Shown here: one piece after another, positions 9,010 through 56,100 of the stretch
Layout: every line of letters begins with the position of its first letter
How positions within the stretch are numbered: the first letter of the stretch is position 1
Translations under genes and position numbers: made by a program
Notes under the pieces: model-generated
Told to the model about the DNA's origin: nothing
Database searches by the model: none
The model's input: the letters and a program-made list of their open reading frames with translations, nothing else
Assembly: GCF_017939705.1 (NCBI RefSeq)
Contig: NZ_JAGKSQ010000002.1
Location: forward strand, 186,001 to 250,000
Direction of reading: 5' to 3'
From: Halalkalibacter suaedae
Lineage (GTDB): Bacteria > Bacillota > Bacilli > Bacillales > Bacillaceae_D
Length of the DNA stretch: 64,000 nt

Positions 9010-9678
9010 GTGCATTGGGAAACGGCTATAGAGGAACTCCAAAAGATTACCGTTACGTCTAATAGTGAAAACGAACTTGTTACAATTAAGGGTGTACATG
9101 ATTTACAATGTGTAGGTGTTGGAACAGATGCTGCTGTTTTTAGGTCGCTTCAAATTCCAAATTATGCCTTTAAGTTATATAGTGACGACAAGATTGAGAT
9201 TAAAGAGCGGGAAGAGTATGTATATAATCAATTAGGAAACACGAGTTATTTCCCAAATTGCCATGGAAGTGGAGCTAACTTTCTTATTTTAAGTTTTGAA
9301 GAAGGTGTGACCCTTTACGACTGCATAGTAAAGGGAATTCATATTCCAGAACGAGTGATAGAAGATGTCGACGATGCTAGAGACTATGCGAAAAGCAAGG
9401 GATTAAACCCAAGAGATATCCATCTGAAAAATATTCTTCTTCATCAAGGAAGAGCAAAATTACTTGATGTGTCAGAGTACACACAAGAGGGAAATGATAT
9501 GAGATGGGACTATTTAAAAAAAGGATACTATGATTACTATCATGTGTTAGATGGTAGACCAATTCCGCTTTGGGTCGTTGAAACTGTTCGAAAGTGGTAT
9601 AATCAATCAGATCGCACACAATTTTCTTTTCAAGAGTTTGCTCAAAAAGTGATGACATTATTTCGCTTTGGTCAATAA
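9010..9678 (+). CDS. Protein kinase-fold protein (YrzF-like)
   Basis: A 222-residue protein with an abbreviated kinase fold. Visible elements are a glycine-loop remnant GVGTDAAVF, a possible ATP-binding Lys in AFKLY, the catalytic loop PRDIHLKNILL (Asp and Asn of HRDxxxxN kept, His replaced by Pro) and LLDVSEY in place of the DFG region (Asp kept, Gly lost). It resembles small Bacillus Ser/Thr-kinase-like proteins such as YrzF. Start is GTG with AAGGGGG upstream. Whether it is an active kinase, a small-molecule kinase or a pseudokinase is open. Confidence 0.7.
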   Translation: MHWETAIEELQKITVTSNSENELVTIKGVHDLQCVGVGTDAAVFRSLQIPNYAFKLYSDDKIEIKEREEYVYNQLGNTSYFPNCHGSGANFLILSFEEGVTLYDCIVKGIHIPERVIEDVDDARDYAKSKGLNPRDIHLKNILLHQGRAKLLDVSEYTQEGNDMRWDYLKKGYYDYYHVLDGRPIPLWVVETVRKWYNQSDRTQFSFQEFAQKVMTLFRFGQ

Positions 9679-9687
9679 GAAGTAATA

Positions 9688-9732
9688 GGGATGGTTCTAA
9701 AGGTGTAACCTTTAGGATCATCCCTTGTTTTT
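9688..9732 (+). terminator. Rho-independent terminator
   Basis: GGGATGGTTCTAAAGG (9688-9703) pairs imperfectly with CCTTTAGGATCATCCC (9709-9724), and TTGTTTTTT follows. Confidence 0.8.
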
Positions 9733-9788
9733 TGTTAGAGTTAAGGAAAGGTTAAAAATAAAATATGATGTAGAAAAGGAGAGATTGT

Positions 9789-10439
9789 ATGTCTTTATAT
9801 TCTCTACAACCAAAGGAGATTGACACGATTACTCTAGGAATGGGATGATTTTGGGGACCTGATGCACGGTTCGGGCATCTTGATGGTGTGGTACGTACAC
9901 GAGTTGGCTATTCGGGGGGGTCAACTAAAAATCCAACCTACCGTAATATGGGTGATCACACTGAATCACTGGAAATTGATTATGATCCTACTGTAATTAG
10001 CGTAGTTGAATTACTTAAGATGTTTTGGCAACACCACAATGCTCAGCGCATGAATGATTATCGTGGACGACAATATTTGTCATTACTTCTTTATCGAAAT
10101 GAACAACAATTGGATCTAATACAATCGCAGAAACAGAAATTTGAAAGACAACTAGGAAAGGAAATTGTCACAGAGATTAAACCGTATCATCATTTCTATA
10201 TTGCCGAAGATCGACACCAGAAATACTATTTAAAACGATTTTCAAATGCCTATGCATCAATCTTTCAACATTTTACAACGGAACAAGCATTTGTGGACTC
10301 GACAATTGTTGCTAGATTAAATGCTATGGCGAAAGGTTTTGGAACATATACTGAGCTGAAACAGAGTGTTCAGTCTTGGGGGTTATCAGAAATAGAAGAA
10401 CAGAATTTGAATAAGTTATTGCTTTCAATCAAGTGGTAG
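9789..10439 (+). CDS. msrA: Peptide methionine sulfoxide reductase MsrA, candidate selenoprotein (TGA at catalytic position)
   Basis: Reduces methionine-S-sulfoxide in proteins. Translation from ATG 9789 (ribosome site AAAGGAGA at 9776-9783) reads LGMG, then TGA (9846-9848), then FWGPDARFGHLDGV. The TGA sits exactly at the catalytic Cys of the MsrA motif GCFWG. The frame stays open for 196 more codons with MsrA features: TRVGYSGG, NPTYRNMGDHTESLEIDYDP and WQHHNAQRM. No Cys occurs anywhere in the 216-residue product, so no thiol nucleophile or resolving Cys exists. With the hairpin at 9861-9879 this fits selenocysteine insertion. Alternatives are a nonsense-mutated pseudogene or a sequencing error. 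A model starting at ATG 9888 would lack the active site. Confidence 0.85.
9861..9879 (+). promoter_or_regulatory. Candidate bacterial SECIS hairpin in msrA
   Basis: GATGC (9861-9865) pairs with GCATC (9875-9879); an A.G mismatch is followed by two more pairs (CG with CG) closing a GTT loop at 9869-9871. The loop begins with G and starts 20 bases after the in-frame TGA, within the 16-37 base spacing used for bacterial SECIS models. It lies in coding sequence, as bacterial SECIS elements do. A rival stem GGACC/GGTTC overlaps it. Confidence 0.55.
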
Positions 10440-10455
10440 TAATAGCGATTAAAAG

Positions 10456-10492
10456 AACGTTAAGAATCGGTTTGATTCTTAACGTTTTTTTT
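10456..10492 (+). terminator. Rho-independent terminator
   Basis: AACGTTAAGAATC (10456-10468) pairs with GATTCTTAACGTT (10474-10486) around a 5-base loop, followed by TTTTTT. Confidence 0.9.
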
Positions 10493-28879: not shown

Positions 28880-29041
28880 CAAAAAATGAAGATCTTTAGC
28901 TATTGATTTTTGCAAAATACTAGTTAAATCATATGGACACCGAGTTAATTTTCTTGATTAAATGAAATTTAAGTGATAAGATTCGATTAATTAAGGGGCA
29001 ATTTTTAACAAGTCTTTGTGAAAATGTCCCAACAATTAAAT

Positions 29042-29183
29042 ATCCTTCGGGGCCGGGTGGAAATCCCGACCGGCGGTGATGAGGTTATAATGACTTCAAA
29101 GTCCGTGACCCTCTTCTAGTAATAGGGGAGGCTGACCTGGTGCAACTCCAGGACCGACAGTGAAAGTCTGGATGGGAGAAGGA
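29042..29183 (+). promoter_or_regulatory. FMN riboswitch (RFN element)
   Basis: All RFN-element hallmarks are present in order: CTTCGGGGCCGGGTGGAAAT, CCGACCGGCGGTGATGAG, GTCCGTGACCC, GGAGGCTGACCTGGTG, ACTCCAGGACCGACAGT and GAAAGTCTGGATGGGAGAAG. It binds FMN and shuts off the riboflavin operon downstream through the terminator at 29302-29337. The gap from 28880 to 29356 holds otherwise only linker sequence and a small AACGTCT/AGACGTT hairpin (29263-29279). Confidence 0.97.
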
Positions 29184-29301
29184 AAGAAAGACAGTAAAGG
29201 TGGATCTTTTTAAAAAATCCCCTTGAATAAAAGGGAGTAGTCTGCCGTTTTGTTAGCTGTTTAACGTCTAATAGACGTTTATTTCGTGATCTCTACATAT
29301 C

Positions 29302-55754: not shown

Positions 55755-55935
55755 CAGTGTCGTTGAAATCGGCAGGTCTCCTGGCTCTAGACTCATCACC
55801 ACATTGGTCTTCCCAGCTGTCGCCAGTGACTTGTTCAATGTGATTCATCTAATACAGTGGCGGGACCGCTTCGGATTTACACCGAATTCCCTTTTAAACT
55901 TTGAAACATTCAAAGTACCCATTCCCAACATATGA
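55755..55935 (-). promoter_or_regulatory. Cobalamin riboswitch of metE
   Basis: Read on the minus strand the leader has AAAGGGAATTCGGTG, AAATCCGAAGCGGTCCCGCC, the B12-box region CGCCACTGT, and AGCCAGGAGACCTGCC, the conserved core of class I cobalamin riboswitches. Followed by a terminator hairpin before metE. The 55619-56100 gap holds this element and otherwise the divergent promoter region of the adenosyltransferase gene. Confidence 0.93.
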
Positions 55936-56100
55936 AATTGTTTCTAACTTTATCTTGATCTGATCGTCTTGTCAATGGAATTGTCAGAAATCGGCGAATT
56001 AAATTTTTGAATTTTCTTTTAGTTTAGCTTCATTTGATATACTATAATAATAAGATTGATTATTGATGATACTACTTTATAAAAATAGAGGTGCTATTAA

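Follow-up and report, generated by a model that had tools for sequence, protein, structure and literature searches.

The gene at 9789..10439 of the window (the whole 64-kb stretch of DNA analysed here) encodes, with a probability of about 0.96, a selenocysteine (Sec)-containing peptide methionine-S-sulfoxide reductase (MsrA) of the Clostridium oremlandii type, that is, a member of the 1-Cys class with a predicted catalytic domain and a predicted C-terminal helical domain. We favour this reading because a UGA stands at the catalytic position of an otherwise intact frame, the genome has the Sec machinery, a hairpin 3' of the UGA is conserved in relatives, and the occurrence of TGA agrees with that of tRNA-Sec across genomes. 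From the same sequence evidence, we infer that msrA is translated, contains selenium and is active. If an annotation took the TGA as a stop, the active site would be lost from view and a fragment starting at GTG 9888 would be left; the same misannotation is possible in the 45 genomes of the order whose msrA orthologue carries a TGA.

The msrA frame and its surroundings

Reading and translation bear out the frame as it was given in the first-pass annotation: ATG 9789 is followed by an in-frame TGA at 9846-9848, a further 196 sense codons and a stop at 10437-10439, and the 216-residue product is free of cysteine. Its MsrA-like character, claimed at the same time, was upheld by profile searches, in which Pfam PMSR (PF01625) matched residues 13-155 at 4e-42 (144.5 bits, as compared with a cut-off of 23.7), while TIGR00401 scored 127.7 bits, above its curated cut-off of 108.1. 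A downstream start at 9888, described as an ATG, is indeed present, but it is a GTG. The motif around the UGA would read G19-U20-F21-W22-G23. Substrate-site residues listed for C. oremlandii MsrA (CoMsrA) in the portion of PMC4333827 available to us, namely Tyr47, Glu55, Gln89, Tyr90, His137 and Tyr140, align with Y51, E59, Q95, Y96, H143 and Y146 of the msrA product. The putative C-terminal extension (Table 1) is delimited by the end of the Pfam match at residue 155, by a phmmer alignment to 4u66_A that covers residues 13-211, and by the domain limits in the same portion of PMC4333827.

Terminator-like repeats flank the gene on both sides and msrA is therefore probably transcribed alone. The 222-aa ORF directly 5' of it (9010-9678, + strand) had no NCBIfam match at E ≤ 0.001. 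Elsewhere in the window there are an FMN riboswitch (29039-29187, + strand, 111.8 bits) and a cobalamin riboswitch (55755-55937, - strand, 116.6 bits).

Table 1. Positions of msrA and associated features in the window
Feature	Position	Strand	Remarks
Terminator-like hairpin 3' of the gene preceding msrA	9687..9725	+	From inverted-repeat listing
Shine-Dalgarno-like AAGGAG	9776..9781	+	7 nt 5' of ATG 9789; read directly
msrA (predicted Sec form)	9789..10439	+	216 residues; predicted Sec codon at residue 20; Cys-free; profile matches
UGA in G-U-F-W-G motif, catalytic position	9846..9848	+	Read in frame
Putative bacterial SECIS hairpin	9861..9879	+	7 of 8 positions paired; GUU apical loop (9869-9871)
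Putative C-terminal extension, codons 156-216	10254..10436	+	Sequence alignment to the CoMsrA helical domain
Terminator-like inverted repeat followed by a T run	10456..10486	+	Stem listed on - strand only; T run read on +

Sec machinery and the hairpin 3' of the UGA

The genome that holds the window (4.32 Mb in 30 contigs, 98.7% complete) contains selA, selB, selC and selD, the four genes whose absence, according to the first-pass annotation, would have told against a selenoprotein. tRNA-Sec (selC) was found at 60.2 bits, over the cut-off, with anticodon TCA, and profile matches gave 359 bits for SelB, 562 for SelA and 414 for SelD. All four are clustered within ~9 kb on contig C29 (locus L009, C29:85000-104000), in the order selC (- strand), selB, a GT4 glycosyltransferase, a PhnD/PhnE/PhnC-like transporter, selD (- strand) and selA. 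Because selD carries an in-frame TGA of its own, in AGUGC, it is likely to be a second selenoprotein gene. A formate dehydrogenase was considered as an extra selenoprotein and was not counted, the single TIGR01591-like protein being under the cut-off and without a stop. The GT4 glycosyltransferase between selB and selD (L009:9941-13522) has GPMC-system GT4 as its best NCBIfam match (246 bits) and SenB as the next (72 bits), both below cut-off; the binding protein of the transporter also matches, again below cut-off, the putative selenate-binding family TIGR04553. Glycosyltransferase and transporter could possibly serve selenium uptake and a selenosugar-type step.

The window's hairpin is an 8-pair stem with an A-G mismatch at 9866/9874 and a 3-nt loop lying 21-23 nt past the TGA. 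When 20000 synonymous versions were drawn at random, 26% had at least seven of the eight pairs, and the minimum free energy (MFE) was equally low in 17% of 4000 such versions; single-sequence folding, being no better than synonymous chance, was rejected as support for the hairpin. Only the exact core string CGGTTCGGG stands out, with a frequency of 0.3% among 20000 synonymous versions. Rfam returned no SECIS match over the local stretch, and one chance match.

Comparison across relatives is more informative. In 49 TGA loci (48 distinct sequences; L130, described below, is kept in these counts), columns 16-23 after the TGA can pair with columns 27-34 around a GUU loop, which is found in 48 of the 49 as compared with 34 of 85 Cys loci. 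Columns 23 and 27 form G-C in 32 of the TGA loci, A-U in 13 and A-C in four. In the 17 rows with A, an Arg codon CGG is replaced by Gln CAG (His CAT in one), and 13 of these rows have Phe TTT instead of TTC, restoring the 23/27 pair. Covariation was assessed over the 48 distinct sequences by five measures. Cells in which both sides had changed numbered 15 (mean in shuffles, 4.9) and the covariation score was 0.247 (0.195 in shuffles), values that none of 500 shuffles reached, and 88.3% of cells were paired, as compared with 85.3% in shuffled and 24-49% in slid versions; the remaining two measures, the number of pairs altered at both positions and the number of further pair types, were not above the shuffles, 105 and 491 of 500, respectively, being as high.

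Mean MFE of the hairpin region was -8.8 in the 49 Sec loci, against -5.9 in the 85 Cys loci. Of the 34 Sec loci in the order, the family included, 28 have a paired core containing GUU and GGG, as compared with two of 17 Bacilli Cys loci (p 1.6e-6, for rows that are related and with two of the 17 Cys loci identical over the 60 bases compared). The mean number of pairs kept, out of eight, is 7.6 in Sec rows of the order and 5.9 in the 15 Sec loci outside it, where the outer pairs are poorly kept; Cys rows keep 5.1 in Bacilli and 3.1 elsewhere. The conserved string does not reflect codon habit, since CGG, TTC and GGG are uncommon in the window (6.3% of Arg, 22% of Phe and 17% of Gly codons, respectively). 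The SECIS-like hairpin proposed at first pass thus appears convincing across the relatives, with its conserved loop and core and one covarying pair over 49 loci, whereas the window copy taken alone, with seven of eight pairs, is unremarkable and at the level of chance.

SelB carrying Sec-tRNA would bind this hairpin directly past the UGA and insert Sec20, whose selenolate would attack methionine-S-sulfoxide, with the release of methionine. The oxidized Sec would then have to be reduced by an external thiol system, because the chain contains no Cys that could act in resolution. Among the Sec rows, 20 of 48 are without any Cys, and the commonest place for one (+40) is common to 15 of 48; a conserved resolving Cys is therefore not a family trait. 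The reductant of CoMsrA is glutaredoxin, not thioredoxin (PMC4479559). By analogy, the likely reductant here would be a bacilliredoxin-family (PF06491) or a glutaredoxin-family (PF00462) protein, two of each being encoded in the genome, and a bacilliredoxin may be the partner of Sec-MsrA. The family allows the recycling of a Cys-free Sec-MsrA to be tested where bacilliredoxin-family proteins occur.

Distribution of TGA and tRNA-Sec, and alternative readings

Within the family, an msrA orthologue (E ≤ 1e-40) is present in nine of 41 genomes, each with exactly one in-frame TGA and no other stop within the match, so that the frame decay in close relatives that would have spoken against the first-pass reading is not seen. 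tRNA-Sec scores above cut-off in 19 of the 41, including all nine carriers (Fisher 2.6e-4). Ten of these 19 genomes are without an orthologue at E ≤ 1e-40, and in them other selenoproteins presumably maintain the Sec apparatus. The assignment of the window's genome to a Bacillus-type order is based on its gene content and on the named relatives in the trees. Among 397 genomes of this order, the orthologue is found in 53, of which 45 have one in-frame TGA (G343 with a TAA in addition) and eight have no stop; reading the DNA of 28 of the 45 showed TGA as the catalytic codon, the other 17 being known by stop count only. tRNA-Sec, present in 179 of the 397 genomes, was found in 45/45 of the TGA genomes and 0/8 of the stop-free ones (Fisher 1.1e-9, calculated from related rows in which the eight stop-free genomes represent three genera and hence few independent cases). 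Some genomes have two or three tRNA-Sec genes (G015, G109, G088 and G171). In the phylum, an orthologue (E ≤ 1e-35) occurs in 19 of 398 genomes, 16 of them with TGA including the window's own; the other 15 TGA loci were read and all have it at the catalytic codon.

The catalytic codon, at which the first-pass annotation advised looking for TGA or Cys in orthologues, is TGA in 49, TGT in 54 and TGC in 31 of the 134 loci read. Most of the Cys loci (80 of 85) came from a contig scan with six patterns, which cannot give the share of Sec forms because one pattern contains the Cys codon and all 80 loci kept are Cys. At one Sec-MsrA locus, L130 (G343:C1), an extra in-frame TAA lies 3' of the TGA; that gene is perhaps decaying, and tRNA-Sec is still present in its genome. 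These related bacteria offer Sec and Cys versions matched to the presence or absence of tRNA-Sec, and with them a direct test of what is gained from selenium in protein repair.

If the TGA were a true stop, msrA would be a decaying pseudogene, or translation would restart at GTG 9888, and the resulting fragment of 183 residues would lack the active site. A mechanical ORF of 183 aa does run from that GTG, and the additional TAA of L130 is in keeping with decay. However, no Shine-Dalgarno sequence is visible 5' of 9888, and the codon is the same TGA in 49 loci, with no second stop inside the match in 48 of them; nor does it take any form other than TGA, TGT or TGC over the 134 loci. Together with the agreement between TGA and tRNA-Sec in all 53 genomes of the order that have an orthologue, this makes a true stop very unlikely. 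That agreement, 53 of 53, also weighs against the insertion of an ordinary amino acid by near-cognate suppression of the UGA, a reading that is compatible with the sequence and with the weakness of the window's own hairpin in isolation. Against it stand also the Cys found at the site in every non-TGA locus read and the use of TGA to end 13 of the 53 long ORFs in the window, and we consider such suppression slightly less probable still.

General recoding of TGA was rejected: the 13 of 53 are counted among mechanical ORFs of at least 150 aa, and readthrough adds no more than 28 codons. A sequencing or assembly error for a Cys codon at 9846-9848 is the least probable of the alternatives. A Cys codon does occupy the position in 85 of 134 loci, albeit in a Cys-biased set, but the genome has the Sec apparatus, and a local error is not credible because TGA stands at the same codon in 48 other genomes, one locus having been read from each. 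We conclude that Sec insertion at the UGA is by far the best explanation of the msrA frame.

Sec and Cys forms of MsrA and comparison with known systems

The relationship between Sec and Cys forms was examined in two unrooted trees, a quick one of 128 rows (six identical rows merged, a partial CoMsrA sequence added, L130 left out) and a careful one of 60 rows (including 10 of the 15 Sec loci that lie outside the order, but neither an archaeal outgroup nor L130). In both, the Sec rows are interspersed with separate groups of Cys forms, from Carnobacteriaceae, Caryophanaceae/Staphylococcaceae, Paenibacillus and Domibacillus. The larger tree needs eight changes between Sec and Cys and the smaller one four, of which well-supported branches alone force at least two and at least three, respectively; many forks are open, 46 of 125 inner branches in the larger tree and 17 of 56 in the smaller. 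A single origin of the Bacilli Cys forms is weakly disfavoured: holding the 17 Cys rows together gave p-AU 0.032 in the 60-row tree, but this Cys group was defined with the first tree already in view and includes one long row (L152). No paper listed in our literature searches was seen to report Cys forms falling among Sec forms in an MsrA tree.

With moderate confidence, we prefer replacement of Sec by Cys, accompanied by loss of the Sec apparatus, as the direction of change in these unrooted trees. The hairpin pairs in Bacilli Cys rows hint at most at remnants, because Sec rows outside the order themselves keep just 5.9 of eight pairs, and closer protein similarity could explain them. A fuller scenario, to which we give somewhat less than even odds, is that Sec was ancestral for long-type MsrA in the Bacillus-type lineage and was repeatedly exchanged for Cys as the apparatus was lost, some hairpin remnants persisting, while bacillithiol/bacilliredoxin recycling replaced glutaredoxin in the lineage of the window.

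Sec-MsrA as a kind is already known. In Chlamydomonas, Sec likewise occupies the catalytic site of MsrA, and decoding is of the eukaryotic type, with the SECIS outside the coding region. Bacterial examples are documented in those portions of the literature available to us: a 2026 review gives MsrA as a selenoprotein of certain bacteria with the motif GUFWG/H (PMC13188914), MsrA is among the prokaryotic selenoprotein families listed in PMC9312934, and PMC1794560 lists it as a selenoprotein of Syntrophobacter fumaroxidans while crediting Bacillales with three selenoproteins as of 2006. In the available text of PMC12013277, Sec-MsrA appears in a reference only, and in the main text of PMC5029168 (>5200 genomes), as far as available and with Table 3 in part, neither 'MsrA' nor 'sulfoxide' occurs. 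No paper listed in our literature searches was seen to describe Sec-MsrA as widespread in Bacillales, which is no proof of absence. The first-pass view that the gene would be notable in a Bacillaceae-like genome must nevertheless be tempered, as a gene with one in-frame TGA is present in 45 of the 397 same-order genomes sampled; Bacillus-type relatives carry Sec-MsrA more often than expected.

The same genome also encodes MsrA paralogues that are 25-35% identical to Sec-MsrA and have no internal stop. Two of them are, by their motif, GGCFWC cysteine forms; in the third (25% identical), a motif search found no G-x-F/Y-W. The long-type Cys-MsrA proteins of Carnobacterium, Planococcus, Paenibacillus, Domibacillus, haloarchaea and others share the MsrA motifs, are full length in the Bacilli rows and are 36-51% identical to the window MsrA over the best segment. 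They differ in having TGT or TGC as the catalytic codon and in that just two of the 17 Bacilli loci have the complete hairpin core.

In a phmmer search of the PDB, the first-ranked matches (3e-46 to 9e-42) were 4U66, 7C13, 4LWJ, 4LWM, 4LWL, 4LWK and 4W8C, all of which we take to be MsrA of Clostridium (Alkaliphilus) oremlandii. 4LWM is named for CoMsrA in PMC4479559, and the CoMsrA peptides quoted there match the letters of 4U66. CoMsrA is a native selenoprotein, Cys-free and with Sec at the catalytic position, where the window gene, otherwise Cys-free, has its TGA. The two are of similar length (209 and 216 residues), and the C-terminal extension is included in their alignment (residues 13-211), as far as sequence alignment can tell. 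They have nevertheless diverged in sequence, the window MsrA being longer by two residues just ahead of its RQY motif, and, whereas the reductant reported for CoMsrA is glutaredoxin, the Bacillus-type genome of the window has bacilliredoxin-family proteins.
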